Assembly: GCA_001414345.1 (NCBI GenBank)
Contig: LLCB01000249.1
Location: 25,272-89,271 of the forward strand
Reading direction: 5' to 3'
Origin: Hymenoscyphus infarciens
Taxonomy: Eukaryota > Ascomycota > Leotiomycetes > Helotiales > Helotiaceae
DNA length: 64,000 bases
Below, piece after piece: positions 3,935 through 46,636 of this stretch. Positions within the stretch are counted from its first letter, which is position 1, and each line of letters begins with the position of its first letter. The translations under genes were made by a program, and so were the position numbers. Under the pieces are notes generated by a model, which worked only from the letters and a program-made list of their open reading frames with translations, had not been told where the DNA came from and did no database searches.

Positions 3935-4051
3935 TCTCTCGGGGGTGGAGAGTATGACTCTATGTTGGCGGGGAATCAGGATATGTTGGTTGGATGGATT
4001 TTGGGATATGCTATCTGGATATTTTCACGGGCGTATGGGTGGGGGTGCTTG

Positions 4052-15133: not shown

Positions 15134-15473
15134 TATAACGGCATACCGTCCTATATAGCCGAGATTATATAACATATGCCGTGTTTTAGTAGTTGTTTTA
15201 TATTATCTAATTTAGAAAGGTTACGTACGTCTAGGCTTTCGGACGTACTTCGTAGGGTTCAGGCTTTTATATTAGCCGACGTATGTCGTTATTCGGTTTC
15301 ATATCTCTTTTATATCGTCTAAAACCTCTTATATATAGCAGCCTACTTCTAGAGTTAGAAAAGGCTAGTTTAGCCTTTTCTTCTATATTAGAGCCTAGTA
15401 TTTATATATATTATTTTGCTAAACGTACTCCTATATACCTCTTCTATAGTTATATATATTTTATACTATTATA
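15134..15473. repeat. Left LTR (340 bp)
   Basis: Matches 17955-18294 base for base apart from scattered C/T and G/A transitions. Preceded by ACTAT, followed directly by the element interior at 15474. Confidence 0.85.
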
Positions 15474-17954: not shown

Positions 17955-18294
17955 TATAATAGTATACCGTTCTATATAGCCGAGATTATATAGTATATAC
18001 TATGTTTTAGTAGTTGTTTTATATTATCTAATTTAGGAAGGTTACGTACGTCTAGGCTTTTAGACGTACTTCGTAGAGTTTAGGCTTTTATATTAGCCGA
18101 CGTATATCGTTATTCAGTTTCGTATCTCTTTTATATTATCTAAAACCTCTTATATATAGCAGCCTACTCCTAGAGTTAGAAAAGGCTAGTTTAGCCTTTT
18201 CTTCTATATTAGAGCCTAGTATTTATATACGTCATTCTACTAAACACACTCCTATATACCTCTTCTATAGTTATATATATTTCGTACTATTATA
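17955..18294. repeat. Right LTR (340 bp)
   Basis: Partner of 15134-15473, same length. Preceded by the polypurine tract and followed by the second ACTAT copy. Confidence 0.85.
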
Positions 18295-20588
18295 ACTATA
18301 GAGAAACCTACGAAGCTATATATATTACTTTAAACTTCTAAATAGCGATTCTCTAGATAATATTCTTAAGAGTGAAGTCTTACTCTTAGATCCTATCTAA
18401 CTTCCTCTTTTATACTCTAGTATATTATTAGCTCTAGCTTTAATAAAGAGCGAGTAGCGTTTATAAGAGTAGTAGCTTATAGTTAGCGTTATATTTATAT
18501 ACTAGCTTTATAGAATACTAGGCTTCTGAATTTAAAGTATATAAGCATCTCTTAGCGTAAGCTAGCGCGCTACTAGGCTTTTAGTTTTAAAAAAGTATCT
18601 CTAAGAGTAGTAGTAGCTAGCTTCGTAGCTAGGCTTTATACCTTTTATAAAGGGCTTTATATAAGCTTATTAAGAGTAAGCTACTTAGAGATATACTTAT
18701 TTATAGTAGAGCTTTTACTATATTCAAAGTTAAGAGAGTCTTATAAGAGAGTCCCGTCTACGTTTATTAGAAGAGTCCTTATTCACGCTTATTAAGAGAG
18801 TCTCGTATTCGAAGTTAGAAGAGCTCTACTCGTCGAGAGTAAGTATCGAGGGATTAGTTACGCTAACTAATAGCGGAGAGCGTTCTGAATACGTAGTAAT
18901 ATTATTATATACGTAAGTAGAAGAGAAAGTTATAAGAGTATACTATAAGTATAAACCGAGCTTATAACTATAACGTATTTTTAAGTTAAAAACGCTCTAA
19001 GAAGCTTTATATATAGAGGTAGAAACTCTACTATATATATAGAGAAAAGAGGTTACGTAAGACTCTCTTTTTCTATAATAATATAGTAATTAAGAGTATT
19101 AGATTATATATAGCAGGTTTTAGAGAAGTTAGTATATATATCTTTAATATATCTAAAGTTCTTTTAAATCTCTACTATCGCTTTTAGCACTTCTATCTAT
19201 AATACTCTCTTAATTACTAAATCGTTAAGCTATCTACTTATTATAGTAGAGCGCTCTCTCTTCGCTTTCTCTACTTTCTTTTAAGTATTTCTTTTATCTC
19301 TCTTTCTCTTACGTAAAAGAGACGCTACTACTACCTTCTACGCTACTTTCTTAACTATATATCTCTAAGCATCGCTATTATTATCACTTAAAGATTTAAT
19401 AGAGAATAGATTACTCTTATAACTTAATTAGTTTACTACTTCGTTATATACGTTAGTAACGCTCTTAGACTTTTTAGCGCTCTCTTTCTTAAGCGTCTTT
19501 ATAGTCTTTAAATTAATAGGATTATTTAGATTATTATTTATACTATAATATACTACTAAAACATACTAGATTATCCTCTCTCTAATAACCTTAGTATACT
19601 ATAAAGCCTTCTTAAAGTTATTCTAATTACTTTAATTACTAATATTATATCTCTTAGGCTTATTCTTTATACTCTAGATAGCTATTTAATAATTAGGATC
19701 TTAGTACTCTCGATTATACTTAAAATAACTATTAAAAAATCTATTAATAACTCTATATATTTTTAATACTATATATTTAAAGTCTATCTCTTAATTTTTA
19801 AGCTTTAAATTCAAGAGCTTATTAAAAGTTCTCTCTTATATATTATCTATATATGTCTTTATCTTAATTACTATAACTAGCGCTTATAGTACTTTTAAGA
19901 TATTTAATACTTTAGAGAAGGTCTTCTTTCTAAGAGTCTTTTAAGCTTTATTACTATTACTCTTAGAGAGCTTAGTAGATAGAAAAGTTCTCTTCTTTTT
20001 AGCTTTTACTAATAAGAGTATAGAAGAGTCCTTTATAAGCTTTAAAGACTTAAAGACTATCTAATATTTAGCCTTATCTTTAGCTTCTTTTCTTACTCTT
20101 ACTCTTACTATCTCTCTCTCTCTCTCTTCTCTTATCTAATCTTTCTCCTCTTTTTTAGTATTAGCTCTTTTCTCTTCTATATATATTATATTATTATTCT
20201 TAATCGGTTATTATAATTTAGTAGCTCTAGAGAGAGAGAGGGAGATTAAGAGTATATAAGAGCCTAGTACTATTAAAGAGCTTTTACTAGAAAGACGCGC
20301 TTCTAAAGCTCTTAAGCTAGCTCTTACTAAAACTCTTATATTAATCGTAACCTTCTTTAGTAGCTTTTTTAGCTCTAGAAGGTAATTTAGATATCTCTAG
20401 CCTAGAGCCTTATAAGTATATATTCCTAGGTATATTAGAGTATAAAAGATATTAATAATAAGAAGTATAAGATAATAAGTGATAATTTAGCTAATATTTC
20501 GCTAGAGGCTTCTAGTAGCGAGTATAATACGTAAAACGCTTAGATTATAAAAAAGTAGGTAAATTCAAGCTTAACTCGTAACTAACTA

Positions 20589-20812
20589 TATATATATATA
20601 TATATTTAATAAGATATTCTAAATAGTAACCTCTTATAAGTTAGTATATATTATTACTTATCTCTTAATATATTAAGTAGTCGTTTAGCGCGTAGTATAT
20701 ATATTAGTATATATATTATTATATTTCAAGTTTATAACCTAGTACTATAAAACCAGTAGTATAGAACTAGTAGACGAGAAGGGATATATACGAACTTTTA
20801 AAGATTTATATC
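20589..20812. other. AT-rich spacer between two dead transposons
   Basis: Runs of TATATA and RIP-like composition between the right end of the pogo-like element and the LINE target site. It probably continues on the far side of the LINE at 26,563-26,705. No terminal repeats identified. Confidence 0.4.
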
Positions 20813-20827
20813 TCTAGAGAGCTAAAT

Positions 20828-23800
20828 ATATCTTTTTTCAGAGACTAAATTTTTTGGTCTAAAACGCTTAATCTCACTTATACTCGATTAAGAAGCGAAA
20901 TTCCTTTTATAGAGTCTCTTCTAGAAAGCCCTCCGTCCTTACCTACGTCTCTAAGAAGAGAGATAAGAAGAGGAGAGGTTCGCCTAATTCCTCTTATTAT
21001 AGCTATTTAATAACGTTTTATCTTTAAGACTTCTAGGTCTCTTAAATAAGATACTATAGCCTAAACCTTCTTTAGAGATATTAGAGAAGTTATAAACTAC
21101 TATTTAAACACTATTCTTAATAGCGCTCTCTTAGATCTCTTACCTCTTCTTTAAACCTTCTATACCTAGGTTACTAACCTTAGCCTCTTCTACTATAAGG
21201 TATATACTAAGGAGACCTTACCTCCTCTTCTCTTAGCCTATAGTACTTACTTAGAGTATAAGAACGCTACTACGCCTTTTCTAACCTTTCTCTCCTTTTT
21301 AAATACTATAAGAAAAATTTCTTATATATAGACTACTAAGGATGTTTTATTACCTAAAAAGATACCTTAAACTACTAAGTCTTTAAAGAAGATAATAATA
21401 ATAATAATAACTCTACCTTACTCTTTCTCTTCTATTTAGAAGAATAAGAATAAGAGATCTAAGCTCTTTGTCTAAATCCTACTTAACTCCTTAGATAGAG
21501 TCTACTCTACCTATACTATTTTCCTAGTACTTTATAACTTAGGAATTAGATATAAAGACCTAGTATATAAGGTACTCTTAGTTAATTTTAGCTTTACTAT
21601 TATCTCTAAAGATAAAGAAGCTTTATAATCTCTCTTAGTAAAGAAAGCTAGTATATAAACTCTTTTTAGTACTACTAGAATAGAGCTTCTATAAGACTAG
21701 ACAGCTTTCTATATTTTAGATATCTCTTAAAAGATAGAATCTATCTAGATTACTTAAGTAGGAGTAATTTAATTAACCCTAGCTCTTACTACTCTTAAAG
21801 TAGTAGTATTAGTAATTAAAGAACGAATTAGAGCTAACTTTATAAGAGTTTATATAGCTACTAGCTCTTTCTTAAATAACCTATTCTATACTACTTAAGT
21901 AGCCTTCTTTAAAGAAGAGGATATAAAAGGCCTCTCTACTATCTTAAATATAACTTTAATTCTAAGTAGTAGAGTCTACTTAAAGCACCTCTTAAAGAAG
22001 TCTACTATAATTTAGTACTTAAAGTACTAGTAATAGTATAATATCTAGAATTATAATAAAAGCTAATAATACTACTTCTATAGTAGTATAAAATACTTAA
22101 AAGACTTCTATCTTTAATATATTAAGTACTTTTAATATAAATTAAAGTGCTTATACTATAGCGGTTCTTATATCTTAGATAATATTATATATTAACTCTA
22201 GCTAAAAGCTACTAGACCTCTACTTTTAGTAGAGAATATAAGATCTATTTAATAAGTATACTCTAAGTAATAATTAAGAAAAGAGAACGATTTACTTTAT
22301 AGCTTTATAGATATAGAAATAGACTACTCTATTACCCTTCCTCCTCCTCTAGACCCTTAGTTTAGTAAGGAGGCTATCTTAAACACCTCCTCTTCTCTAC
22401 TCTTATACTCTATCTCTTAACTTAAGAGCTCTAACACCTACTCTAATCTCTCTCTCTTATAAGTAGACGAGGACCTTTTAAATAATACTATCTTTAAGTC
22501 TTATAAATTAATATATATAAGTCTAGTGAGTACTAAGAACTAGCTCTCTAACTTATATACTCTAGATAAGTAGATATAGTTCTTATATAAGAACTATATA
22601 TTTACTAAAAGGAGATTAACTATTAGATTATAAGATACTATTTAAACTATACTTGCTTTTTACTTATTTATAACTAGAATAAGGACTACTTTTAAATACT
22701 TACTTTTATATAAAAAAGAGTAGGTATCCTCTTAAGCTAATAATTACTAATTATACTCTTACTTAATTACTAAGACCTTATTTATATTAAGATTATACTC
22801 TCTTAAAGCCTCCTACTATATATTCTTAATATATATAATACTCTTCTAGGTACTAAGAGTGCTAGAGAGGCTATTAATCTTATCTTTAACTTAGAATATA
22901 TTTATACTATAAATACTCTTATAACTAGAGATTTAAATTTAAAAAGCTAGCTCTAATAACTAGACTTCCTTAGCTAAGAAAGTATATAGTCTTTCCTACT
23001 TATTAGCTAAGTAGAGAATAGAGAGCTATAACTTTCTACTCTTTTTAGAATATAAATATATAACTTTAATAACACTCTTAACCTTATCTTTTACTTTAGT
23101 AACCTCTTCTAAAGAGGAGCCTCTACTAAGGTAGACCTCTCTTTTAAATATAGCTTAGATTACCTCTTACTTCTTACTTAGCTCTTATATATAAGAAATC
23201 TAATAGAGAAGAACCTACTTTTAAAGCTTAGTACTCTTAATACTAAAACCTTTAAAATAACTCTTTAAAGTAAACTTAAAATATAATAGCTATTTAAACT
23301 TATAGAGTAACTAAATACTAATTTACTAGAGGCTCTGGTAGGATTTATTACTAAGAGCGTATATAGTACATACCTTTATAGTACTAAGTAAGGACTTAGT
23401 TATAGATTTAGATACCCTTAGTAGAATAAGAAGTACTAGGTAGTAGCTACTAAGGCTAGGTAAGTATAAAGATATAAGATAAACCTATAAGCTTTAAAGT
23501 CTCTTTATAAGAGTCTAAGACAAGAGATCTAGAAAGTAAAAAGAGAATACTTCTATAATCTAATTAATAAGGTAATAAGAAACAAAGACGTTTTCAAGAT
23601 TTATAAATAATACTAGAACACTAGAGTCTATAAGTCCTTACTCTTAAAAGACTTAGTAGGCTAATTAGGCTTTACTACTTAAGAAAAGTAAAAGATCTTA
23701 GTATAAGAGCTACTTATAAATAAGGCTAAAGTTAAAGATATTCTATTTAATACTCTAACTACTACTTCCTAGTCTCTCTTATAAGCTAACCTTACTTTAT

Positions 23801-26547
23801 ATAAGGTTAAGGAATTAATCCTTAATAAAGCTTTAACTATACTAAGAGAGGACGAGCTTATAATAAGGGTTTTTAAAGTAGCCTAGCTATAAATATTAAG
23901 CCTTATCCTCTCTTTATTTAAAAGCTATATTAAGATAGGCTTTTACTTAAAGATCTTCTATACTATTATTATTACTATTATTCCTAAGCTTAATAAGAAA
24001 GATAAATCTTTCTCTTAAGTATACTAACTAATTATATTACTCTTAATTCTTAGAAAAGGGCTTAAAAAGCTTCTTACTAAGTAAGTCTCTTAAATAGCTA
24101 TTAAATACACTATTCTAAGTTAAAACTAGTTTAACACTCTTCTATTAAAGGCTACTATAGACTTTACTACCTACCTTACTTTTAATATTAAGTTAGCTCT
24201 TATAGATAAATAAAAAGCCTCTCTTCTTATACTTAATATTAAAGAGGCTTTTAATATAGTACTCCTTAGCTACCTAATTAAAAGACTTAAAGAGTAAGAA
24301 TAGCTATACTACCTTATAGAATAGGTCTCCTCTTTCTTAACTAATAGATCTATAAAAGTAAAGCTTAATAAAGAGATAAGAGACGCTACCTTACTTAAAT
24401 ATAGCCTCTCTTAAGGCTTATCTATCTTGTTAATCCTTTTTATACTATATATCTAATCTCTCTTTTAGCTAAGAGTTAGCTCACTTCTAGTAGTATAGAG
24501 ATTTAGCTATACTAATAACATTAGACTACTTACCTCTAGTCTCTTAAAGGTAGAGAATATTAAGCTACTTATAGAATAAGTAACTAGTATACTTAAGTAG
24601 GACATAGATAAGAGTATTACTTTTAATACTAAAAAGTTAGAACTTATCTACTTCTTTTATAAAAGAAAGTAAAAAAGAAGAGAGATTTAACCTTCCTCTT
24701 TTATTATAGTTAAAGGTAAGATAATAGAGCTTATAGAAGAGCTTTAATAGCTTAGCATCTTCTTTAACCCTTATCTTACTTTTTATAGCTATATTAAAAG
24801 AATAGCTAGTAAAGCTACTTTTATAGCTAATACTCTTAAAAGTATAATAAATATAGTAAGAGGATTCTCTCTATACCTCTTAAAATAAGCTACTATAGCT
24901 TATATCTTTTTAATTACCTACTTTAGATATAAGACCTAGTACCTAGGTTATATAAGGAAAATAAGTAGTATAAGCTCTATAAATAACTAGATTAGCTAGT
25001 ACCTAATACTCTTAAATAGAGTAGTTATAAAGTATACTAGAATTATCCTCCTAGTCTATAAAACTACCTCTATCTTAATACTCTTTATAGAATCTAGCTT
25101 ACTAGCTACTAAGATTACTCTTATTACTAAAAGCAAGGCCTTTAAAGCTAGAACCTAACGTCTTAACTTAGCTTACCTACTTAAGTAATACTTAAATAAC
25201 CCTTACTTAAAGACTAGGCTTATTTACTAGTCCTCTTAACCTCTCTCTCTTTTAAAAGAAATTAATCTAATTTAAAACCCTTTATAGAATAGAGGTTTTA
25301 ACTAATAAACCTATCTCTTTAAGATAGTAGACCTAAGCTTTAATAGTAATAAAGAATCCTATAAAGCTAAATTCCTTAAATTCCTTACCTTAGTCCCTCT
25401 TATAAACTTAGTTATATTTACTAATAGCTCTTACTTAGATAATAAAAGTACTAATAGAGGTATATATCTTATAAGAGAAAGGGTTATATTAAATATAAAG
25501 TTCTTTCCTTTTAGTAAAACCTTAGAAATTTATAATATAAAGGTAAAAGCTACCTTATATAGCCTTAAACTAGCTTTTAAATCCCCTTTTTAGTCCTTAG
25601 CTATAAAATACTAGATTTACCTTAATAACCTTAAAGCTATACTCTAACTAACTTACTAGTCTTATAGCACGTTATAAGGAACTTTTAATAAGGTCTTCGA
25701 CTTTACCTAGCTATACCCTAGGAAAATTTAAATAAGATAGTACTTTAGTTATATAGGAATCTATAGTAATATAATAACCGACTAAGCTATAAGGAAAGCA
25801 GCTCGCTTAACTCCTTCTCCTAGCTCCTACCTCTTACTCTATACTACTATACTTAATTATAAGACTAAGAAGATAGGAATTAAGCTTATAAATCAACTCT
25901 AGTAGACTATACTCCTAGATATCTATAAGAGGCTAGGTCTTACTTCCTAGTCTTTAAAGCCTAGGACTCTTAAGCTATTAAGAGAGGTCCTAGCTTAGCT
26001 AATTATAGCTTATACTAGCTATAGAGACTTTATAGTATACTATCTTCGCTTCTTCTACTTTAATATACTTCTAGAGTTAAAGAACTATAAATATAAGAAG
26101 GTAAAGACATAATTCTACTTACTCTTTTATAAGCTTATAAATAAGAAGAACCTAAGGCTATTAACTAAGGCTAAGAGAAAGCCTTAACTCTTTTTTAGAC
26201 CTAGGTCTAAGGAACTCTTTTATAAGGTCTATACTAAGACTAAATTCTTTATAAAGATCTATCTCTTAAAATAGTTTAATTACTTTATCTCTCTCCTCTC
26301 TCTTATACCTTTATATATCTCTTTTATCTTCTTCTAACTTATTAAACTATTTAAGAATAAGAGCTATTCTAAAAGTAGAGCTTCTCTTTAAACTATCTTT
26401 TATAAATTAGCTTACTCGTTTACGCCCTCTATAGCCTAGGGTACCCCTCTAGCGTCTTTTACCCTCTTTTAAGACTTTTTAGGACCTAGACTACGCGATC
26501 TAGACTCTGCCTAACGTTAAATAGTAATAAATAAATAAATAAATAAA
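20828..26547 (+). mobile_element. Tad-like LINE (non-LTR retrotransposon), RIP-degraded
   Basis: A 15-bp direct repeat TCTAGAGAGCTAAAT lies at 20813-20827 and 26548-26562, flanking the element as a target-site duplication, and the 3' end has an (AAAT)n tail at about 26,525-26,547. The 5.7-kb length fits fungal Tad/I-clade LINEs with two frames. Remnants on the plus strand include a reverse-transcriptase stretch near 24,400-24,450 (GLSILLILFILY, where a GxPQGSxxSPxLF-type motif is expected) and the catalytic Tyr-x-Asp-Asp site at 24,508-24,522, which now reads YTNNI because both Asp codons have become Asn codons by G-to-A change. Stops occur throughout, so it is inactive. Confidence 0.8.
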
Positions 26548-26562
26548 TCTAGAGAGCTAAAT

Positions 26563-26955
26563 CTTTTTTTAGTAGTATATATCTTATTTATATATATACT
26601 AAGATATATAAGGTTAAACGAGGGATTTATATCACTTTTAAATATATATACCAAACACTAGTATATATATAGAATTAAGATATATATAGATATATTACCT
26701 TATAGTTTTTGGTAGTGTATATCCTAGATATGCACGAGCCAAACAGGCTCTTAGACATAAAAAGGATGATTAGGGAGGGTTGGCAAGTGCCTGAGATGGC
26801 TAAAAACCAAAAAAAAACAACGTTTAGCTACTGAAGAGAATTTGACACACTCGTAAAAGTTGAAATAAGAGCAACCACCAATAAATGTAATTTATACTAA
26901 GTCCTAAAGTTCAATAAGTGTCCCGAAAATGGAGCCCGGAGGTACACCTTGGACT
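26563..26955. other. AT-rich tail of the transposon block, then P450 3' flank
   Basis: About 140 bases of AT-rich sequence continue the spacer seen at 20.6 kb. From about 26,705 composition returns to normal; this part is the 3' flank of the minus-strand P450. No gene seen. Confidence 0.5.
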
Positions 26956-28667: not shown

Positions 28668-29470
28668 ACTGTAAAGGTCGTAGGTAACTTTGGAGGGAAA
28701 TGTTGAAATTGAGAAGACGGTTCTTCGTCTCTTGCCTGGTGAAGGGGTGTGCTGTAGTTTCGGGGTATTTGCGGTTCATTACCGGGGCTTTCGCCGGAGA
28801 TCCCCCAACCCCAGTACTCTCTCCCCCCTTAATTGCCGGGTATGTTGACGCACAACCATTTTCACAGCCAAACACAGCGCCTGCAGGTATGCATGTAAGA
28901 CTGACGAACATCAAAACATCAAAACATGCCACTTGGCGTGCTAGATGCTGTTGGGGGGTGGGGTAATGGTGCCTAAATAATCCCCCTTCTGCGCTGTGGG
29001 GTACAACGAGGTAGTAGTTAGTTGGTTCTCAATGCAGTCTGAAGGCCCCGATGCAGTTGGTTTCACTGCAGTTAATTTGTATATGCCGTTGGTCTCACAT
29101 TGGCTCGATTACAAAGCCAAATTGCGAGCGAATCTTCTCTGTGCCATATTCGATGTGACCATGCCACTGAGATATAGTCGGTGTGCGAATCGTATTTCCC
29201 TGTCATATTACCAACAACCTTTCTGAGTCTACTACCACACACACTACATTGCCCCTGAGCCGTACACGCAGATCTCCTACCGTTTTTGTACCTTCTTTCC
29301 ATCCAATTTCTATTATTTTAAATTCTACCAATTGCCGGTTGGAACCTTGTAGCACGAGACTTCTTAAGACCCGACTGGCTTCCGACAACAGCCAACCCAA
29401 CCAAGTCAGAAGATATTTCCCCGATTTTTACTTCAACTAAGCCTGCTTCAACTCTCGCGTGGCCGACACG
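28668..29470. other. Divergent promoter region: P450 / PTH11-like receptor
   Basis: 803 bp between two divergent starts, allowing coordinated control. No conserved gene seen. A pyrimidine-rich stretch precedes the receptor start. Confidence 0.5.
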
Positions 29471-30896
29471 ATGGCGAGAACATATGCCACTCCAGCTGCA
29501 GTGCTAGTCATAAGCGTCCTGTTCTCAGTTCTTGGTGTTATTTTTGTAGCGTTGCGCTTCTACACAAGAAGAAAGGCAAAACTTAGCGTCGGAATAGATG
29601 ATTGGTTGACTCTTCCAGCTCTAGTAAGTAAATGATTGAATCTCATTCTTAGCATTGGATAACTTAGTTACCGTTCTAGGTACTAGAATTTGCCCTTGCC
29701 GGACTTTTGATCTGGGGGGCAACGACTCACTCTCTTGGCGAACTTCTACCGGCTCCAAATGTCCCAGGCCCAGAGGGATATCTCTTCTCGGATTCCCCGC
29801 AGCAAATTCGATTGCAAAAGGCATATAATTCTCATTTCTGGTTTCGATATGTGGAGTTAACTTGTGCCAAGATCCAATATTTCTTCGATTTCATTGTTAT
29901 TTTCGAATTTGGATTACTCAAACTCAGTATCCTCTTCTTCTACCGAAAGATATTCTGCAGCGCACTAGTCGGGAGAACTGTCTTTGGCATTATTGTAATG
30001 GTCATGATTGTGTTGGTGGTTGTTTGGACTTCGGCCTTCGGAATTGGGGCTATATTCCTCTGTGGAGGCAATCCAAAATTTGCTTGGGCTCCAGTAGCAG
30101 TTGTTGCGAAGGAGTGTAGCGCGCAATTACCATTCCTCGAAGGTTACGCCATTTCTGATTTTGTTATGGATGTCTTGATATGGTCACTGCCCCTCCCAAG
30201 AGTCAGTAGAACAATCCAGTTGTTTATGCAACGCTGGACCCTGACCAAAAAAGGCTGATTTCCATCGATAGATCTGGGCACTGAACATGACTCTTCGACG
30301 CAAGATTGCTGTGGCAGCAGTGTTTCTTGTCGGCCTCCTGTAAGTTGACTGCTGTGAATATCAAAGATGCTCTATTGACTTTTCCAAAGTACGATTGCAG
30401 CCTCGGCCACACGAATGGCGATTTACATTACATATATTATCAATGCATTTGCACAGTCTGATGGGGAGAGTAAGGCACCCGTTATTTTCTTTTCTCTACC
30501 GACGCCTTCTTTTGATTGCCAATTGCTAACCTCTTTTCAGCACTGATCACCTACCTTCTATTCTGGACAATGATTGAATGTGGTCTTGGTGTCATTGTTG
30601 TTTGCCTCCCTACGTTACGGCCTCTTTGGGGCAAAATGTCTCTTGGGGGTATCCTCAGCGGCATCAAAAGTGCCTTCACTTTGAGATCCTTACCTTCCAG
30701 CTCAAACATAGAGCCCGGATTCCAAGGTCTTGAAAGCGTGGGCCGATCTGCGAAACCATCGCTGTCGTACTCAAGTCTTCGTGGCCACAATGAAGGAACT
30801 ATGATGACAAATATTGTCGTTGGTTCAGATGTGGAGAGACAAGAAAGCGGGGGATTAAATGGAATTCGAGTTCACAACGAGGTGGAGCAGCATTGA
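29471..30896 (+). CDS. PTH11-like seven-helix membrane protein 1 (5 exons, 392 aa)
   Basis: Exons 29471-29623, 29680-30201, 30272-30339, 30390-30469, 30541-30896, an exact codon count. About seven hydrophobic segments are visible, with the family marks of the fungal rhodopsin-like domain: RFYTRRK then DDWLTLPAL after helix 1, the LKLSILFFYRKIF segment, and SDFVMDVLIWSLPLP. The C-terminus is a hydrophilic cytoplasmic tail of about 100 residues. No N-terminal CFEM domain. Members include PTH11-class GPCR-like proteins and the SAT4-like proteins found inside several fungal metabolite clusters, where their role is unproven. Signal sensing or membrane function is inferred. It shares a promoter region with the P450. 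Confidence 0.9.
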
Positions 30897-31623: not shown

Positions 31624-32386
31624 CAGTGTGGTCGATAGTATTATCGTGATAAAATACTACAGTATTTTAGATTAATATATTATCATGATATCCCAGTAGT
31701 ACGTATCTAAATACGCTATAATACGATCGTAATATCGTGATATCATACGGTATATCTTTTAATAACTCGTAAGCGCTAAAACCCACTTTTTCTTAAAATG
31801 AGGCTATTCACACTTTTTCTATATACTCTTTTATCACTTACTTATTAGACTAAAATAAGTTTTATTTATCGATTTAGTTAATATTTGCCTATAGTTAAAG
31901 GGTAAAACTTAGTAGAATTCAATATACTAGTTTATTATATTCTAGCTAGTAATCTAACGTCGAATTAGTACTTAGTGTTAAGAGATTTCTAGACATGTTT
32001 TCATCTTATACGGGCTACCTTTTTAACCTTATAATATTTAGGTTAATTTAAGAGCTATTTATATAATTCTTTTTTTGAAATACTCTATTTAAATAGATCT
32101 ATAATTCTAGCTATTCAGCTATATATTTTTTGTATTATACGTTGTACTATATAAAGCTAAAATAAAAGGCTGAAAAGAAGTGGGGTAAAAACCGGGGTAA
32201 AAAGCTTAAATATTATAGCTTAGCAACACCACGATATTATCATAATATCGATTAAAATACCAACAATATAAAGGATAATATTATTAGATATCGTAGCATT
32301 TAAATAGTATAAATAGTACGTATTAAAGTGGGTTTCCAACAATATATCGTGGTGGTACAATATTCTAAATACTATCGACCACACTG
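31624..32386 (+). mobile_element. hAT-like MITE, copy 1 (763 bp)
   Basis: Ends are perfect inverted repeats CAGTGTGGTCGATAGTAT (31624) and its complement ending at 32386. The AT-rich interior has no coding capacity. A near-identical copy lies in inverted orientation at 40,545-41,316, with differences mostly C/T and G/A. Flanks read TGCATCTG and TGCATCAG if one extra base is allowed at each end, consistent with an 8-bp hAT target duplication with one mismatch. The CAGTG start is also typical of hAT ends. Confidence 0.75.
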
Positions 32387-32895: not shown

Positions 32896-33715
32896 TCATT
32901 TAAAATCTGCACAATGCCCTGTCGGCCAACATGCGCTGTGATCTTTCGCCCAGTTCGTAAGTGCATTCCAGTCTTGACATGCCCTGAACTGCCCATCACC
33001 TGTAAGCCGGGATCTATATGGAATATAGAGCGGGGTATCATCCGCCCTACACTCTATTGATTGGCGTAAAGCGTTATAGCAGTGATTGATATGTATCACC
33101 CGGTCTCCCACACCCCTTCCTGCCATCAATTCCTTAATTGCCTCTCTGAGATAAATCTGTTTCCATGTCAACATTTTTGCGAGGACCGGGCTAGAACTTG
33201 CATACCACGCAATGAATCTCGTGAAATCCACTAAGAACATATACACCTTTCTGGGAATCATCCGGAAAATCTTCCGCCAACGGGAGGCCAAAATCTGCTG
33301 CTTCACCATGAGGAATTGCAACAAAACCAGTGGTATTGAAGGTGGCCCAGGCTACATCAGATACTGATTGATTGATGTCACTGTACCTGGTATAAGTTTG
33401 GAACTGTTCCCAAGTCTTGCCGTGTTTGTAAATTCCAGCTGTACGCGCAGTTAGCAACATCGAGAGAACGAAAACTTGTAGTGGCATACTAAATCCCTTG
33501 TCTTCGAGAGCAAGCCCTAAGCGTCTATTTTGGACATATAGCGTTATATTGCAAATGAGTAAGCCGATCGCAAGGACCATCATCAACGCTGGGTGAGAAA
33601 GCTTGGAGGGGAGAAATGAAAGGGGGCGCGAGGGTACGCCTGCGCCTGGGGTGTCATCGTCCTTACAATCCTCTTCGAAGTGGTGTAAGCTCTGCTCTTC
33701 AGTGGAGTCTGACAT
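32896..33715 (-). CDS. UstYa-family (DUF3328) oxidase-like protein 1 (239 aa)
   Basis: Exons on minus 33715-33490, 33438-33206, 33156-32896, an exact codon count. The first intron is in phase with no stop but has a strong GTATGC donor, GCTAAC branch site and TACAG acceptor. A short acidic cytoplasmic tail and one membrane helix (LMMVLAIGLLICNITLYV) are followed by a lumenal domain with the two family HxxHC motifs: HEIHC (148-152) and HINHC (175-179, followed by YNALRQSIEC). UstYa proteins are thought to be copper-type oxidases that cyclise or oxidise ribosomal peptides in the secretory pathway (ustiloxin, phomopsin, asperipin) and also act in cyclochlorotine formation. The gene is divergent from peptide precursor 1, with 696 bp between starts. 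The ATG at 33715 is preferred to an in-frame one 30 bases upstream. Confidence 0.9.
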
Positions 33716-34411
33716 GGTGGGAAGACTGAAGAACTTCCAGGTCAAGAGAGTACGGAGATAACGATTGCGGATGGAACCAGGCCTGAATGTAATTCGATTT
33801 CACAAGAACGATAGAACCCCTTAGTAAAAGCTGATCTTGTAGGTTTTTGTCGTAAACTTTTTAGCGTGTTATATATCGGTGTGTGGTTGTTGGTGTGGTT
33901 AAGATTGGGGTGCTATATACCCCCAATAAGCGAGCTAGGCGAAAGGGGCGAAGCCACCAAAATCTTGTGACCAACATGGCAATAATTGGCAAAGTTTGAA
34001 CGCTTAAGGAAGATTCATGCAATATCCATCCTTCATTAGAGTTACCCTGCTGCTGACGTGCGAAGTGAACCGGAAGAATCGCCGGGTGCGAGTCTCGCCA
34101 AAGGTTGCTTGTCATTAGCCTGGAACCGTGTGACTCTCGTTGGCTCGGAGGCCCAGGTTATTGACCACTCAGTTTGTTGCAAGCTTCAACAAGGATATGC
34201 CCACACTTTGAGAATAGTTGACGCCTCTTGCATGCAGCCATGATTGGCTTTGGAAGCGTGAAATGTAGGAATATTTAGTGTCGCTTCGATCGTTTTCTGT
34301 CTCCTTGTTTTCTTCCATGGATCGTCACATTAACCACTTGAATCAGGAAATAATCACCTGAGATTCTCAAAAACTACCTTTCTCCCAAGTCAAACCGTAC
34401 CACCAAAAAGA
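33716..34411. promoter_or_regulatory. Divergent promoter region: UstYa 1 / precursor 1
   Basis: 696 bp between divergent starts; joint control is likely from geometry. No conserved operator was recognised by eye, and no other gene seen. Confidence 0.45.
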
Positions 34412-34779
34412 ATGCAGGTCAAGACGTTGTGGTTTGCAAGCTTTTGCTTGATGAGCGGGGTTCTCGCAATGCCCAGTAAGCTGATGATTTCGCAATGAAG
34501 TATGATCAAAGACTAACCTATTCAGAGCCAGCTGTTCACTCTACCAGAGCAATCGAAGCTGTTGGTCTCAACAAAGAGCAATGGAAACGCGTCGAAGAGT
34601 CAACAGATGGCACCCAAATTGGTGAAGGCTGGAAACGGGACGAGGATGTAGAGGATGGCACTCAAATCGGCGAAGGTTGGAAACGGGACGAGAATGTGGA
34701 GGATGGCACTCAAATCGGCGAAGGTTGGAAACGGGACGAGAATGTGGAGGATGGCACTCAAATCGGTGAAGGTTGGTGA
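34412..34779 (+). CDS. Repeat peptide precursor 1: candidate dikaritin-type RiPP (2 exons, 105 aa)
   Basis: Exons 34412-34475 and 34526-34779. Residues 1-19 form a signal peptide with cleavage likely near Ala19. After a 22-residue leader come four units of 14 residues (44-57, 60-73, 76-89, 92-105), each ending in DGTQIGEGW and each preceded by Lys-Arg (42-43, 58-59, 74-75, 90-91). The last unit ends exactly at the stop codon. This is the architecture of Kex2-processed repeat proteins and of dikaritin precursors such as UstA and PhomA. Kex2 cleavage and basic-residue trimming would give four near-identical acidic 14-mers that differ only near their N-termini. No Tyr or Phe occurs in the repeats and Trp is the only aromatic residue. 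UstYa genes lie on both sides. An alpha-pheromone precursor was considered but the C-terminal sequence does not fit. Product and modification are inferred. Confidence 0.85.
34606..34776 (+). repeat. 48-bp tandem repeat inside precursor 1
   Basis: Units at 34606-34653, 34654-34701, 34702-34749 and a 27-bp partial at 34750-34776, beginning GATGGCACyCAAATyGGyGA. The second and third units are almost identical in DNA, which points to recent unequal exchange, while the first differs at several mostly synonymous sites. One unit codes for one 14-residue peptide plus its Lys-Arg site. Confidence 0.9.
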
Positions 34780-35020: not shown

Positions 35021-35893
35021 TCATGTCTGGATACCATCATCATGGCTCTCGCAATTTCCAAAGTGGTCGTTCAAGGGTATTGGGTGGTCGCTATCCTTGT
35101 AACAAGCAGTGTTCATGCGCGCCCATTTTCTCCTACTTCCCCAATCTACACAATTACGAAGCTGGTTATTGCCAGTCTGGTTTCTTCCCCAGGTGTACAA
35201 TAATGTGTCTCCAGAATTTCCACAGACAATATACTGCAATAAACTGTCAAAACAATGGCGAGAGTGTTGTATTGCAACAGTGGGAGGCTTTCCCGCCGCA
35301 ATTTCGACCAATGTTTTCCGAATAATAGTAAGGCAGTGGATCTGATGATAGCTTTGTCCAATTGTCAGTTTCGTTTTCATTCTTTCAGGAAAAAAAACTC
35401 CCAATGATTGATTGAATAAGAACGTACGCATCAATAATGTAAACTCCCTTTGTATCATTCGAAGGAAGGCTCATCGTGTCCGGAAGATTGTGCTGGACTG
35501 CCCATTGATGGTCGACCGAGATAATTCCAAAAGCAGGAACGATGCGCTCCCAAGCAGCGTTGATTGTCGCTTCATCTTCTGGATCTTCTGAGCTGTAGAT
35601 CTTTGTATTCCAAAGAAATTGTTTCCAGTGGGTTTCCTCCGATGTGAGACCTAAGTGTATAAGCTTCATTCTCGAATGTGAAAAATATTTTACATACGGT
35701 ATTGCTGAACACTACGTCGATTTTGTTCATCCAGTGGTTGCAGTGTATTTGCAAGTGTAAGACTTATACATGCCACAGAAAGAACGACAATCAGTGCTTC
35801 TCTCCACAAGTGGAAGATACAGTCGCCTGTATGCGACCGTCCATTGGGTAGGGGGGCATATTGGAATACAGGGTCTCTTGGTCTGCCGAACAT
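35021..35893 (-). CDS. UstYa-family (DUF3328) oxidase-like protein 2 (259 aa)
   Basis: Exons on minus 35893-35698, 35650-35428, 35381-35021, an exact codon count. The N-terminal tail and one membrane helix (EALIVVLSVACISLTLANTL) are followed by the lumenal domain with HxxHC motifs HQIHC (152-156) and HSRHC (179-183). The spacing and the cysteine-rich C-terminal region (NCVDW, NTACY, GNCES) fit UstYa. It lies convergent with precursor 1 (241 bp between stops) and divergent from UstYa gene 3. Probably it helps oxidise or cyclise the precursor 1 peptides; in ustiloxin synthesis two UstYa paralogues work together, so pairing with gene 1 or 3 is plausible. The start at 35893 gives a normal short cytoplasmic tail; an in-frame ATG at 35968 is the alternative. 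Confidence 0.88.
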
Positions 35894-36364
35894 GATCTCT
35901 TCAACATGAATGTTCTGAAAACTCCCGGATATGGTTCTGAAGTCAAAACCTGAGTGTTTAGTTTGCATTCAATTGAGTCCCCGCCTGGTACCAAAAACAG
36001 GATTTCTCGGCGATGGGGGGGGGGCTGGAATTCCACATTCCCTGTTCGGGTTATTACTCCGAAATCAAACACAATATAACGTACACCGTTTTCCTGATAT
36101 TGTGGGCATCAAGCCGTGCAGCTGATCCTAGTCCAGTGTCAGTAGTTGGGCTTTTTGGGTGCTGCCACCTAATCAGGGGTTCGTTCCAACAGCAGCATGC
36201 ATGTCAGAGGCACATGTTGGTTACAGGCATCAAAACTTAACTGCCAAAAGTTCCAATTTGACTGTCGCTTGTGGCCATTCATCCGAGAGACATAGCGGTG
36301 CTATCTCTCGCTCCTCACTCGCATTTGTCCAACTTTCATGATCGTCTTTGTTTCTTCACACATT
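35894..36364. promoter_or_regulatory. Divergent promoter region: UstYa 2 / UstYa 3
   Basis: 471 bp between two divergent UstYa starts, so shared control is likely. No specific binding site identified. Confidence 0.45.
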
Positions 36365-37164
36365 ATGAGAACGACACTCGTTTATGACAAGGTGGAGCAG
36401 AATCCCAGCGACGAGGTCCCAGAAACCCCTCGTCGTGTGAATAAGGCGAGATACACAAATTATTACGCCGCTGCAGTTGGGTTTACCCTTGGCTTAACTT
36501 TCTCTTTTCTTCTTTTTTTGGCCGTTCATTCCACCAACGTCAGTTGTATCAAGGAGACGCATTTCTGGTCTCCTGCTCTTGAATCTTACGAGGACGACGA
36601 AAGCATGGAGCTCCAACGCTTTAATGGCGCTCTGAGGATGTCAAACCAATTTCGTGGCCCTCCAAGTCAGGAAATCGACAACGCATGGGAGGCGATAACT
36701 TATCCAGATGGCGGCTTGGTGCGACTTTCAAAAGATGAGGTCGCCAAAATCAAAGCGTCGGATTTTGCTGCTCAGTACACAGAAGAAATGGGTGGTGGTT
36801 ATATTGCGGGTATCGAATTTCTCCACCAACTTCATTGTGTAAACATGCTTCGCCAGGCAACATACATGGATTATTACAGCAAAAAGAACGAAGAGTGGAA
36901 AGACCAGGAAACTTTGAGATATCACATAGGTCAGTCCAGATATCTGAAGCGGATGAAAGGGACATTTGCTAACCATTTGTAGATCACTGTATAGACATGC
37001 TACGTCAAAAGGTTTGTCAGCCCTTTTGGACCTTTTACTCGAGCAGAAATGCCGTGAGTGCTTGAATAACGTAATTATAGCTTATGTGTGATCCTGATGT
37101 AGGTATGGTCACATATGTGTGGGCCAAAGGCTGGAAACAAGCCTTCCCAGATTTCAATACGTAA
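36365..37164 (+). CDS. UstYa-family (DUF3328) oxidase-like protein 3 (225 aa)
   Basis: Exons 36365-36929, 36983-37011, 37081-37164, an exact codon count. The single membrane helix (AVGFTLGLTFSFLLFLAV) lies at about residues 37-54. HxxHC motifs are HQLHC (154-158, followed by VNMLRQ) and HIDHC (187-191, followed by IDMLRQK). The second motif spans the junction with a 29-nt exon. The C-terminal segment (MCDPDVGMVTYVWAKGW) is the usual UstYa ending, so the gene is complete. All motif residues are present and activity is expected. It is divergent from UstYa gene 2 and is the last gene of module 1; the following 3.4 kb is repeat-derived. Confidence 0.92.
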
Positions 37165-37540
37165 ATTATGCCTGAAATCCCAACAAGACATCATTAATGC
37201 TGATTGTTAGCAGCCTTCATAAATGCCGACCTTACGACAAGATCCTAAACTGGGCACATGAGAATTCTGTACATGGGAGAAATGTTTCGGATATTATACG
37301 GGTACCAGGAGCTCCTGAAAGAGAAACGCGTCCTTGAGAGTAAATTATTAGACACGAAATATTCCGACTTTTTCCTATACGTTCCAGCTCGTCGTTTGTT
37401 GAATTCTACGAGATTCCTTTATACTATAGAGATTACGTATAAGAATACTGATTTAGTTAATAGTAGAGTATTTATATATATACGTCTCTAATATTAAGAC
37501 GTTACTTTTACTAAAGAAGACAAATATTTAATTATACGGT
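37165..37540. other. 3' flank of UstYa 3, turning AT-rich
   Basis: Normal composition to about 37,330, then RIP-like. No gene seen. Confidence 0.45.
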
Positions 37541-39043: not shown

Positions 39044-40244
39044 CAGTGTTTTAGCTTTCCCCGCCCTGGTTAGCCTAGCACTCTAGAGAGGATAAGCTAC
39101 CTCTCTCTATTAGGAAAGGAGAGGATTAGCTAATTTCACTTATAGGCTAGGCTAAATTAGGTAGGAGAGATACTAAATTAGAATAGGAGAGGTAAGGAAG
39201 ACTAAAAGAGAGAGCTAGATAAGAAGAGGTGTTAAAGAAGATAGGATAAGATAGGAAGTATATAAGTAAAAAGTATTAAAATAAGTAAAAAGTAATAAAA
39301 GGTACTAATATTATAAACTAATTTAAGAAGTATTAAAAATAATAATATTATTAAAGCTGCTAAAAGACGAGATATTATACCTAAATTACGTATTATCCTA
39401 GTAGATTAGTAATAACCTAATTCTCTTTATTCTACTACTTACCTTCTAAGTCCTTTTCTCTCTACTTCTCTTATAACTTTCGATAGATGTTTCGCTAGAT
39501 ATTACTATTATAAGGTCGGATTCGCTATTGTTAATAACGATCGCCTTAAACGATTAAGAAGGAGAAGAGGTAGATTAAGAAGAGGTAGACTAAGAAGGGG
39601 TAGACTAAGAGAGAGTAGACTAAGAGAGGGTAGATAAGAGAGAGTAGGTGTTTAGGTGCTAGCTTAGCTAGAACGTCTATAGAAAAAAGAGTAGCTTATA
39701 TTAGTAATAATTAAGACAATAAATAATAAGAGAAGTAATATATAATATATATGTCTTATATTATTATATAGCGTAGGTATTAAGAGGTATAATTAATATT
39801 ATTAATATATTATCTAGAAACTAGTTAAGGCTTAAATACGAGAGCTTACGTCCGTCGGAGTAAATAGTACTAAATTAAGTACTCTACTAAGTACTTGATT
39901 TACTATAGTAAAACCCCTGTTTTTAGATACTAATTAAAGACTAATATTATAGGCTTTTCTTAGGTAGCACTACTCCTACTAAATCTACTAATAACACTAT
40001 AAATAATATATTTAAGGCTAGTATATACCCTACCTAGCCTCCTCTATAAGCTAGGAAAGGCTACTCTAATACCTTAGATAGGAAAGGATAGGTAGAACAA
40101 ATTTTAGAATAGGATCAAAGTAGCTAGGAGAAGTAATATATTAGGATAAGATTAGGTAGAATAGCCTTAAAATAGAGGTAGGAAGGAGAAGGATCGTTAA
40201 GACAGGATAGGATAACAGATTAAGCAGGGAAACCCAAAACACTA
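39044..40244. mobile_element. Non-autonomous hAT-like element (1.2 kb)
   Basis: The left end begins CAGTGTTTTAGCTTTCCCC at 39044; the right end read on minus from 40244 begins TAGTGTTTTGGGTTTCCC. The two ends match over about 20 bases apart from a few changes, mostly C/T or G/A. CAGTG-type ends are typical of hAT elements. The AT-rich interior has no recognisable transposase. An 8-bp duplication was not found (AAAGTCGG versus GCTCCATC), so the limits are tentative. Confidence 0.5.
39554..39650 (+). repeat. 15-bp minisatellite
   Basis: About six imperfect copies of TAAGAAGAGGTAGAC in tandem, inside the hAT-like element. Units differ by A/G changes. Confidence 0.8.
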
Positions 40245-40259: not shown

Positions 40260-41400
40260 TCCAAAGAATCACCGAGTCAATAGGCCTTGAACTTCTTCGC
40301 ACTCTCCTCCGAGAACTCCAGAAGACTTTTGATGGTAAAAGGAGCTCCTATTGAACGAATTTGGAATCATCACGGGGGCAAACTTTACGCTTTATGCAAC
40401 CTTGCAGGATTAATATACAGGGCGCCAGATTGTTCTTGCCAAGTAAGTGAAGTGCTGCCGTCTTAACTGAGCTTTGAAAAGACTGTTCTTGAATCATGTT
40501 GAATCCTTCCAGGTAGGCAGTGTCGAGAGCCAATTTAGTAAAAGCAGTGTGGTCGATAGTATTTAGAATATTATACTACTACGATATATTATTAGAAACC
40601 TACTTTAATACGTACTATTTATACTATTTAAATGCTACGATATCTAATAATATTATCTTTTATATTATTAGTATTTTAATTAATATTATGATAATATCGT
40701 AGTATTACTAAGCTATAATATTTAAGCTTTTTACCCCGGATTTTACCTTACTTCTTTTTAGCTTTTTATTTTAGCTTTATATAGTATAACGTATAATATA
40801 AAAAATATATAGCTGAATAGCTAGAATTATAGATCTATTTAAATAGAGTATTTTAAAAAAAGAATTATATAAATAGCTTTTAAATTAACCTAAATATTAT
40901 AAGGTTAAAAAGGTGGCCTATGCGAGATGAAAACATGTCTAGAAATCTCTTAATACTAAGTACTAATTCGACGACAATAACGTTAGATTACTAGCTAGAA
41001 TATAATAAACTAGTGTATTGAATTCTACTAAGTTTTACCTTTTAATTATAGGTAAATATTAACTAAATTAATGAATAAAAATTATTTTAGTCTAATAAGT
41101 AAGTAATAAAAGAGTATATAGAAAAAGTGTAAATAGCCTCATTTTAAGAAAAAGTGGGTTTTAGCGCTTACGAGTTATTAAAAGATATACCGTATGATAT
41201 TACGATATTACAATCGTATTATAGCGTATTTAGATACGTACTACTAGGATATCATGATAATATATTAATCTAAAATACTATAGTATTTTATCACGATAAT
41301 ACTATCGACCACACTGCAGTAAAAGAACCGATGCCAGAGCCGCGACACGGGATTTTCGAGTTGAATCTTACTTGCTCTAGGTCTCCTTGAACACCGACTC
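40260..41400 (-). pseudogene. Unidentified gene relic, split by MITE copy 2
   Basis: On minus, normal-composition sequence on both sides of the MITE appears to be one former gene. After the MITE comes a frame with SFTKLALDTAYLEGF, and about 180 bases later a separate frame carries IRSIGAPFTIKS and SEESAKKFKAY with a stop at about 40,279. This tail is similar to one at about 56.7-56.8 kb (VRSMGVPFSIRG, SEESLVKFQ). The frames are not joined by acceptable splice sites. Family unknown; product not predicted. Confidence 0.35.
40545..41316 (-). mobile_element. hAT-like MITE, copy 2 (772 bp), inverted relative to copy 1
   Basis: Same terminal repeats as copy 1 and matches its reverse complement over the full length, with scattered transitions. 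AGTAAAAG stands before the left end and AGTAAAA follows the right end after one base (C), so a 7- or 8-bp target duplication is present. The insertion lies inside an unidentified gene relic. Confidence 0.8.
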
Positions 41401-41706: not shown

Positions 41707-42823
41707 CTACACCCCCATCAAGTCTTCTCTATGATATTTCCTTGGTTTCAAAGAGTTATTTAGAAGTTCCCAGTTTACACACTCGCGTTTTGCTACTGGG
41801 TTGGCCATTAATTCAGGATCCGGCCCCGATGTCCAGCGATAGGGCATTACTGTAAGTTCGGGTTGGCAAATCAAAGATTGTCGTATGGACTCGAGACAAT
41901 GCACTAGTATTGTAAGCTACTACGTCTCACATGGATTCTTGTACTTACAGCTATGTCCTTGCATTTCCTCTTCAATTCCATTTTCTTGCCACCCGGGATA
42001 GTAGTGATCCTTGAAAAATGTCTGTCGGATTCTCCGCTATGAGAAATTAGGATACTAAAAGCCAGGAAAGTTGTTTAAGTGTTTGGAAAAGACTTACTAA
42101 GCAATGCAAGTTATGATGCTATCTGAGAGTCAGCATTGCCCTTTCTGGAAATATTTGGAGGAGGAAGAAAATAGTGTCTCAGCCATCCCCAAACAACATG
42201 AAAGAGGGAAAAGTAACTTGGAAAACACCCACAACAGTCATGAGAGCAGCAAAGTTATTATCTGTTAAGAGTGCACTCTCATTGAGCCCCAGCTGTTTCG
42301 CTTCATCTCGATAAAGCCGGAAGCCATGGACGTGCCCTGGAGTTGCTACGATGTTCAGAGTCAGTCAGGATCTATCTTCTCTTCTTTGCATATTGGTATG
42401 CAGAAGACCCACGATGGATAAGTCTGTTCCATGCTCTCTCAAGATCATCGCTAGGGGGCCCCATATATACCCCGTTGGTCCAATAATCTGGAGGTGTGAA
42501 TTGGACATCGTATTTGATGCTATCCGTTACTGGAGCTATTGATATGTGAGCCTGTTTCTTCTGAATGGATATGTATGCATACTCCAGAGTGACAAGGCTC
42601 GGGGAATCCCTCGTTGTGAAGTTGAATCTTGACCGGATAAAAAAGCTAACCCAAGTGCAAAGGTCGTGACAATGCCAGATGAAATGCCCCAAAAGATTCT
42701 AGACCTGGTAAAGCTTCTAGCAAAAGTTGGTTTAGGAGCTCTTTGCCCACAATGTAAACAATATTTGAACTCAAACCCCTCCTCTATCAAAAGCGATTCC
42801 GAAGATTCGGTTCGAGAAGCCAT
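41707..42823 (-). CDS. UstYa-family (DUF3328) oxidase-like protein 4 (6 exons, 248 aa)
   Basis: Exons on minus 42823-42634, 42535-42413, 42345-42218, 42118-42098, 42036-41949, 41903-41707, an exact codon count. One membrane helix (GISSGIVTTFALGLAFL) lies near residue 50. HxxHC motifs are HNLHC (149-153) and HSLHC (182-186). The fourth exon is only 21 nt and codes just HHNLHCL. Upstream of it, APVTDSIKYDVQF and MGPPSDDLERAWNRL are standard UstYa segments. The model has more introns than the other four genes, but every junction is phase-consistent; the first intron (GTCAAG donor) is the least certain. It is divergent from precursor 2, with starts 1,286 bp apart, mirroring UstYa 1 and precursor 1. 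Confidence 0.82.
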
Positions 42824-44109: not shown

Positions 44110-44596
44110 ATGCGTTTCCAAGTCCTCATGTTCGCCTTTTCGCTTATTGGCACAGCCATTTCCCTCCCGGTTGCTCCCGTTGATGCACTTAACGGTAAAT
44201 CACATTTCCAACACCGGTACATAGATAAAGGCCTAATCTCCTTGTTGCTAGATGAAGATTTTGCAGTTTCGGATTTTGACTCTTCAGTGGAGGTCAACTT
44301 GGCTAAACGGGAGCCCGTAGCTCCTGTTGATGCACTTAACGGTAAGTCACGTTTCCAACACCGGTACAGAGATTAGGGACCAATCTCATTATCAACAGAC
44401 GAGGATTTCGCAGTCTCGGATTTTGATTCTTCAGTGGAGGTCAACTTGGCTAGAAGTGCTCCTATTGATGCACTCAACGGTATGTGACCATCTGAATCCA
44501 TAGACAATAATTTAGCCTCATTATTTGCTAGACAAGGACTTTGCAGTCTCGGATTTTGACTCTTCAGTTGAAGTTAACTTAGCTAGAAATATTTGA
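44110..44596 (+). CDS. Repeat peptide precursor 2 with intron-bearing repeats (4 exons, 106 aa)
   Basis: Exons 44110-44194, 44252-44341, 44399-44479, 44532-44596, an exact codon count. The signal peptide covers about residues 1-18. Three repeats follow, each VDALN or IDALN, then DxDFAVSDFDSSVEVNLA, at 54-58/59-76, 82-85/86-103 and, first, 24-28/29-46. Repeat 1 ends in Lys-Arg (47-48), a Kex2 site. In repeats 2 and 3 the pair has become Ala-Arg and processing may be lost. Each repeat is interrupted at the same codon by an intron (57, 57 and 52 nt). Introns 1 and 2 are clear copies of each other, so exon and intron were duplicated together. Intron 1 has no in-frame stop and could be retained, adding a stretch with FQHRY; the unspliced frame would stop at 44,376. 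No Tyr in the spliced product. It lies between UstYa genes 4 and 5, so it is a candidate RiPP precursor; function inferred. Confidence 0.72.
44170..44590 (+). repeat. Tandem exon-intron duplication in precursor 2
   Basis: Three copies of a unit of about 140 bp made of GTTGATGCACTTAACG, a GT-AG intron, then GATTTyGCAGTyTCGGATTT and GTCAACTTGGCT. Copies 1 and 2 are most alike, including their introns. Copy 3 has a diverged, shorter intron. Confidence 0.85.
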
Positions 44597-45483: not shown

Positions 45484-46636
45484 TCACACCAATTCCTGGG
45501 CCAACTCATCAGGACTAAATCCAGGCATATATCCATTCTCCTGGAAATAATTCTGCATCTTCGGGTAGTATTGAGAATCCTCATCACAATAAGCGTACTT
45601 CTCAGGCGTGCGTTCGGAAAGTTCCGGGTGAGTAGTGATGCGATGATAACAAGCATTTCTCTCTTTCTCCTTCGTCCAAGCGATGAGTGCGTCGAAGTTT
45701 CGACACATTCGTACTTGGCCCTCGCCAACGTTACCCTTGGGATTCATCATAGCCATTGGAGTGTCGTCGGCATAACACATGAGATCTTGTCGTAGAGTGT
45801 CAAGACAGTGGTAGATGTGGAAATCGGGGTTTTTTGCGATTGGGTTTCCACGCTCGTAGTTGAGAAACGCTCTTCGGATTATTTTCTGTGGGGGTTTTCA
45901 GTGCCTGAAATTAACAACTTTCAGTTTTTCACGACTTACGAGGCAATGGAGTCCGTGGTCTGGCGAGAAATTTCGGTGTCAGTATTGCCATTTCTAGTAT
46001 GTCTGAGGAAGTAACAGGGTTGTGGGGAGGAAACAAAGCTGCCTCAGGAGGAAATAGTGCCTCAATCCTCCTGGAACAATCCAAAAAGGGGAATAAGAAC
46101 TCAGAGAATACGCACAAACTTTGAGGAAGTAAACTCGCTTCGTTTCAGGATCCCATGGAAATGTGACATTCGATTCAGGTAATTCGTGATCTTTCGCCCA
46201 TTGATTGTCCAGAGCCACGGCAATGGGGTCGAAATTGAAAGATTCCCAGTAGACCTCTCGCTGGGTCCAATTGCGACTCTGGGAATCTAGATGACCACGG
46301 TAGACGATTGGTGTGTCGTAGGCCAAACCAGCTGTCATTTGTTAATTATCACAGGTTTCAAGATGTATGAACCGTTTCCAGTGTTTCATACCACAACTTA
46401 CCATATTTACTTTTGCCCAAAGCATGGTCCGTCAATAACAACTCTTTGTATTGAAGGAAAAATAATAGATTTGTTCCCAAAAGGAAGATTATTGCCCCCA
46501 CGAGGACCTTTAACAGGAGGGACGAACCAGATTGCTTTTTTTGTCGAATTCGGAATGGAGTTTGCGATTTCTCTCCTTCCAAGTCGGCTTCAAGAAGATA
46601 CTCGGCTGAGCCTTGGTCACTCGAGTCCATGGACAT
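45484..46636 (-). CDS. UstYa-family (DUF3328) oxidase-like protein 5 (4 exons, 290 aa)
   Basis: Exons on minus 46636-46402, 46331-46116, 45959-45940, 45885-45484, an exact codon count. One membrane helix (LLLKVLVGAIIFLLGTNLLFFL) lies near residue 50. HxxHC motifs are HGLHC (152-156) and HIYHC (180-184, followed by LDTLRQDLMCYAD). The third exon is 20 nt and codes YHGLHCL with its neighbours. The intron before it (46115-45960, 156 nt) begins GTGCGTATTC and contains AGAAATGGCAATACTGAC, the signature shared with two introns of the amidohydrolase at 54.7 kb. The C-terminus is about 40 residues longer than in its paralogues and acidic. It is convergent with precursor 2 and divergent from the second PTH11-like gene. 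A second ATG six bases downstream is an equal start. Confidence 0.88.
45960..46115 (-). repeat. Introner-like intron c (in UstYa 5)
   Basis: Starts GTGCGTATTCTCTGAG and holds AGAAATGGCAATACTGACAC near its 3' end, including a CTGAC branch site. Closely matches introns a and b at 55,352 and 55,726. It carries extra internal sequence, 156 nt in total. Confidence 0.7.

Follow-up and report, generated by a model that had tools for sequence, protein, structure and literature searches.

The stretch of DNA analysed here (the window) comprises 64,000 nucleotides and corresponds to positions 25272-89271 of contig C167, in a genome of 65.6 Mb and 742 contigs whose introns and gene families would mark it as fungal. 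Our attention was focused on a two-exon gene model on the forward strand (34412-34779), coding for a protein of 105 residues named precursor 1, and on the genes with the UstYa domain (PF11807) that surround it. The features of the window, together with repeat-coding arrays and a repeat protein from other UstYa loci of the same genome, are collected in Table 1.

Table 1. Features of the window and repeat-coding loci from other contigs (positions are those of the window unless a locus, L, is named)
Feature	Position	Strand	Description
Precursor 1, exon 1	34412..34475	+	signal-peptide-like MQVKTLWFASFCLMSGVLA and first pro-region residues (basis: sequence, gene model, hydrophobic stretch)
Precursor 1, predicted intron	34476..34525	+	50 bp, GTAAGC...CTAAC...CAG
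Precursor 1, exon 2	34526..34779	+	pro-region ending KEQWKR, four KR-preceded units, stop
UstYa_A	32896..33715	-	PF11807 79 bits, E 4.6e-22 (256-aa model); HEIHC, HINHC
UstYa_B	35021..35968	-	3 exons, 274 aa; PF11807 75 bits, E 9.4e-21; HQIHC, HSRHC
UstYa_C	36338..37337	+	4 exons, 274 aa; PF11807 189 bits, E 1.1e-55; HQLHC, HIDHC
UstYa_D	41707..42823	-	6 exons, 260 aa; PF11807 134 bits; HHNLHC, HSLHC
UstYa_E	45484..46636	-	4 exons, 290 aa; PF11807 80 bits; HGLHC, HIYHC
Cytochrome P450	26956..28667	-	516 aa; PF00067 153 bits
Fungal rhodopsin-domain membrane protein	29471..30896	+	392 aa; PF20684 127 bits; divergent from P450
Precursor 2	44110..44596	+	4 exons, 106 aa; three D(E/K)DFAVSDFDSSVEVNLA units; between UstYa_D and UstYa_E
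C169 array			AQQDSDYTIYKEKREP, core DYTIYK, nine DSDYT units; open, KR-rich
C381 array			PYSISADKRSPEPYTIATTDKRE, cores PYTIA/PYSIS; near UstYa match
C75 array	L047, about 6431-7030		ATDEDLAKYGKR, DEDLAKYG; near UstYa match
C110 array	L051, 2189-2566	-	units ending VGI(A/S/T)KR
C722 array	L055, 3242-3677	-	APNTDIEIPDP...TDFE, with KR and ER
C142 repeat protein	L045, 8080-9119		introns between units; by eye without KR-bounded units

Precursor 1 reads MQVKTLWFASFCLMSGVLA-MPKPAVHSTRAIEAVGLNKEQW-KR-VEESTDGTQIGEGW-KR-DEDVEDGTQIGEGW-KR-DENVEDGTQIGEGW-KR-DENVEDGTQIGEGW-stop. Its four units have 14 residues each and all end in DGTQIGEGW; the KR codons start at 34585, 34633, 34681 and 34729, a regular spacing of 16 residues, and the final W of the last unit stands directly before the stop codon. 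Moreover, Trp precedes every KR site (n = 4), the end of the pro-region included. This C-terminal Trp is the only aromatic residue of the core, and none of the four units contains Tyr or Phe. The repeat part (34585-34779) is therefore present in the DNA as the sequence-only reading had described it, with four units sharing the nine-residue core, each after Lys-Arg and the last at the stop. That reading had also given the protein correctly, but no single open frame spans 34412-34779: between the signal-like exon and the repeat exon lies a predicted intron, which had gone unmentioned and carries a GTAAGC donor, a CTAAC branch-like site and a CAG acceptor. The signal peptide claimed for the protein agrees with a signal-like N-terminus in which residues 6-20 are hydrophobic (mean hydropathy 1.88) and VLA precedes the likely cut, as judged from hydropathy only.

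No family in Pfam or NCBIfam matched precursor 1 up to E 1, and the genome search yielded no convincing second copy; one weak match at C171:86299-86481, which contains two stops and has 28% identity at E 0.06, was set aside on score. The idea that KEQW-KR in the pro-region is the remnant of a fifth unit was also rejected, as its only basis was the shared W-KR and a 60% repeat match there also spans unit 1.

The repeats form a 48-bp tandem array (34606-34776; TRF score 293). As the unit length is divisible by three, the array is also open for 47 codons in a second forward frame and for 70 on the minus strand. Openness by itself therefore proves little, and the informative test is the pattern of changes. 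The four 27-base cores differ at 4 DNA sites, and all 4 are silent, an outcome with P of about 0.0006 under random substitutions and P = 0.004 when only transitions are allowed; as units 2-4 are nearly identical, most of this information comes from comparing unit 1 with the rest. In the spacer, the residue varies at 4 of 5 positions, mainly between unit 1 and the others, while differences between units 1 and 2 number 2, 3 and 7 at codon positions 1, 2 and 3, respectively. The core thus looks selected at the sequence level, the peptide rather than the DNA being kept. A minisatellite that stays open by chance, or a decayed gene, would fit a tandem array open in more than one frame; nevertheless, we consider this hardly credible, as the variable core sites are all silent in the proposed frame, also by the transitions-only test, and a well-formed predicted intron follows a first exon encoding an in-frame signal-like peptide.

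Five genes of the window score from 75 to 189 bits for PF11807, for which the Pfam curated cut-off is 25 bits. Both HxxHC motifs are intact and invariant in all five proteins, and a hydrophobic segment was found near the N-terminus of each (N-terminal parts checked). Three of these genes lie within 1.6 kb of precursor 1, in agreement with the UstYa setting that had been claimed, and precursor 1 has a UstYa gene beside it, the arrangement by which UstYa-type clusters of ribosomal peptides (RiPPs) are recognized. UstYa_A is divergent from precursor 1, with 696 bp between the starts, and UstYa_B is convergent with it, with 241 bp between the ends, whereas UstYa_C, at 1.6 kb, is divergent from UstYa_B. 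UstYa_A was scanned as two exons coding for 256 aa, with the hydrophobic segment at the N-terminus; a further in-frame intron of 51 bp (33489-33439) is likely, and would give three exons and 239 aa with both motifs retained. One predicted intron of UstYa_E is long (156 bp). Searches with UstYa_C alone and with a profile built from all five UstYa proteins of the window returned no related solved structure up to E 1.

Further genes surround this group. The cytochrome P450 is a possible tailoring enzyme of the precursor 1 cluster; a repeat element at 31.6-32.4 kb stands between the P450/rhodopsin pair and UstYa_A. An element of approximately 765 bp is present in inverted copies (31624-32386 and 40545-41316; 93-96% complementary) that bracket the precursor 1 block, and the best 40 of its 417 candidate genome copies include C98:31973-32732, near UstYa matches. 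On the other side, AT-rich sequence at about 37.3-41.3 kb splits the precursor 1 block from a second one (41.7-51.4 kb), where UstYa_D, precursor 2 and UstYa_E are accompanied by an MFS transporter and a further rhodopsin-domain protein. AT-rich sequence at 39416-39634, flagged as a repeat open reading frame (ORF), was set aside by eye. The window is also AT-rich over a long part at 12000-26700 (20-32% GC), which has the look of decayed repeats of the RIP type.

Regarding the promoters, the UstYa_A/precursor 1 and UstYa_B/UstYa_C intergenic regions share three 9-mers, with no excess over a simulated mean of 2.0. The CGG-N8-CCG pattern occurs eight times in the window, where 3.45 are expected and 2 of 100 shuffles reach eight; two of the eight sites fall inside UstYa_A, and in 169 kb from other loci of the genome this spacing again outnumbers all others (27), so that the excess is taken as a lead only. 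A longer form of this type, CCGG-N5-TCGCCGG, occurs exactly twice in the window (28782-28797 and 34070-34085), once in the divergent promoter region of the P450 and rhodopsin genes and once in that of UstYa_A and precursor 1, a weak observation given that the pattern was chosen after seeing the sites.

Precursor 2, the repeat protein of the second block, has KR at one of its three unit ends and a single R at the other two, and its processing by Kex2 is for this reason less clear from the sequence. Each unit is preceded by an intron at the same place, and introns 1 and 2 share 77% identity, which suggests that the exon was duplicated along with its intron. Among the variable codons of the three units, 9 of 10 are silent. 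Family matches of precursor 2 were all below curated cut-offs (best E 0.0098 in Pfam and 0.0028 in NCBIfam) and were taken as chance.

To place the locus in its genome, PF11807 matches were collected exon-wise, giving 41 matches (not gene counts) spread over 19 contigs, with 39 of the matches above the cut-off. The DNA around them was read on 18 of the 19 contigs, C728 being left out, and 6 of the 18, C167 included, carry a Kex2-type repeat array no more than about 2 kb from a UstYa match, a raw count taken without matched random control regions. In 33 kb without a UstYa match (L039-L042), one low-complexity ORF was flagged, which by eye is not a precursor. The arrays on C169, C381, C75, C110 and C722 share with precursor 1 the position of the repeats, some 2 kb or less from a UstYa match, but their cores all differ from that of precursor 1. 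The Y-x-I cores of C169 and C381 are of the kind found in ustiloxin and phomopsin. For the C169 array, the open frame lacks an upstream Met and no gene model was found. The conserved core of C110, VGI(A/S/T), is free of aromatic residues, and Phe occurs in the spacer of 2 of 6 units; of the three C722 units, two have a Phe that immediately precedes KR or ER. Introns within the repeats are a trait of C75 and of precursor 2, and in C75 some units have an intron while others do not.

The stretches read on the remaining 12 contigs yielded no Kex2-type precursor; they amounted to 8 kb each on C82, C348 and C303, 10 kb each on C98, C111, C614, C142 and C10 (on the latter without the match at 82105-82386), 4 kb on C425, and 1.5 kb on each side only on C113, C281 and C58. 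A 63-bp repeat beside the UstYa match of C111 has by eye a coiled-coil-like frame and was not taken as a Kex2 precursor. Other flagged repeat ORFs were likewise rejected by eye (WD40-like in L046, low-complexity in L039 and L056, and alternative reading frames within the arrays). At the start of contig C722, L042 (C722:1-8000) contains a 47-bp unit repeated in tandem about 140 times (3-6688).

Based on these results, we consider it quite probable, from sequence, that precursor 1 is the precursor of a UstYa-modified, Kex2-processed ribosomal peptide, i.e., a fungal RiPP. The repeat architecture alone would fit any Kex2-processed repeat protein (KEP), and the peptides could be secreted unmodified, e.g., as signal or cell-wall peptides, with the UstYa enzymes acting on another substrate nearby. 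Precursor 2, in the same window, could be their substrate, and the lack of Tyr and Phe in the precursor 1 core would be in line with such an arrangement. However, UstYa_A, UstYa_B and UstYa_C surround precursor 1 and are nearer to it than to precursor 2, and five other UstYa-bearing contigs also hold Kex2-type repeat arrays; secretion of unmodified peptides is thus an unlikely explanation, even if one to be taken seriously.

As to the class of the peptide, precursor 1 shows the traits of KEPs at large, namely a signal peptide (judged here from hydropathy), at least three repeats separated by dibasic KR sites, and acidic spacers. KEPs need not be modified, whereas precursor 1 is flanked by three UstYa genes. 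The precursors of epichloecyclins (GigA) and victorin (VicA) are similar Kex2-processed repeats beside UstYa homologues, but with cores that differ from that of precursor 1. A mating-pheromone (alpha-factor-like) precursor would also show a signal-like start, KR-separated repeats and a Trp at each unit end. Nevertheless, alpha pheromones of Ascomycetes are of a Trp/Cys/Pro-Gly-Gln type, and by eye the units of precursor 1 are unlike this motif; nor would UstYa neighbours be expected beside a pheromone gene. A generic pheromone query had no match in this genome, which shows little, as it was run with no positive control. Overall, a pheromone gene seems very improbable here.

A further close comparison is with the dikaritins, whose cores (ustiloxin UstA, phomopsin PhomA and asperipin AprA) contain Tyr or Phe for an ether or related crosslink. 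Dikaritin precursors are, like precursor 1, secreted and composed of several KR-bounded units with the core at the unit end before KR, and have UstYa genes next door. In contrast to them, precursor 1 has a core in which Trp is the sole aromatic residue; in addition, Pfam detected no tyrosinase, methyltransferase or S41 peptidase domain among the 17 window proteins or pieces scanned, several of them single exons, which represent the modelled parts of the window rather than every stretch. The dikaritin-like build put forward by the sequence-only reading holds as far as a UstYa-associated, Kex2-type RiPP precursor is concerned, but the name dikaritin is not supported: since no unit has Tyr or Phe, precursor 1 was not filed as one. 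Its Tyr- and Phe-free core would have to undergo chemistry unlike that of the known dikaritins. Precursor 1 is likely a new example of a known peptide class with an unusual core.

The pattern of silent changes and the UstYa neighbourhood can be read from the DNA itself, while each enzymatic step outlined below is one that we infer from gene anatomy and from ustiloxin-type pathways. The protein would enter the secretory pathway via its predicted signal peptide, a Golgi-type Kex2 would cut after each Lys-Arg, and a carboxypeptidase would strip the basic residues, leaving four free 14-mers, three of them nearly alike. Membrane-anchored UstYa oxidases, encoded on both sides, would then oxidize the core (QIGEGW or DGTQIGEGW), and a ring, if UstYa makes one, would most likely be closed through the C-terminal Trp, because it is the only aromatic residue available in the core. 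The acidic spacer might perhaps be trimmed and the P450 might conceivably add further oxidation before the modified peptide product would be secreted. That UstYa_A to UstYa_C close such a ring from Trp, e.g., onto an Ile, Gln or Thr side chain, in a manner outside the dikaritins, is a tentative proposal that we would ourselves rate as rather doubtful; in that case, C110 would fall within a broader, phenol-independent UstYa RiPP chemistry. The earlier claim that the locus makes a secreted modified peptide is accordingly kept as a candidate, supported by the conservation of the core, the UstYa neighbours and the other loci that combine UstYa genes with repeat arrays.

UstYa oxidases carry out unusual C-H chemistry, and few precursors are known as their substrates. 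Precursor 1 may serve as a simple test, with one conserved Trp core, three neighbouring oxidases and predictable masses. The calculated [M+H]+ values of the linear peptides are 1548.645 for DENVEDGTQIGEGW, 1549.629 for DEDVEDGTQIGEGW, 1507.655 for VEESTDGTQIGEGW, 962.421 for DGTQIGEGW and 689.325 for QIGEGW, from which every ring closed with loss of two hydrogens would take off 2.016. Moreover, this one genome pairs UstYa genes with at least six repeat cores, among them two of the classic Y-x-I kind and two or more, those of precursor 1 and C110 included, without Tyr or Phe in the conserved core, and so provides a set with which to ask what UstYa enzymes recognize and which bonds they make.
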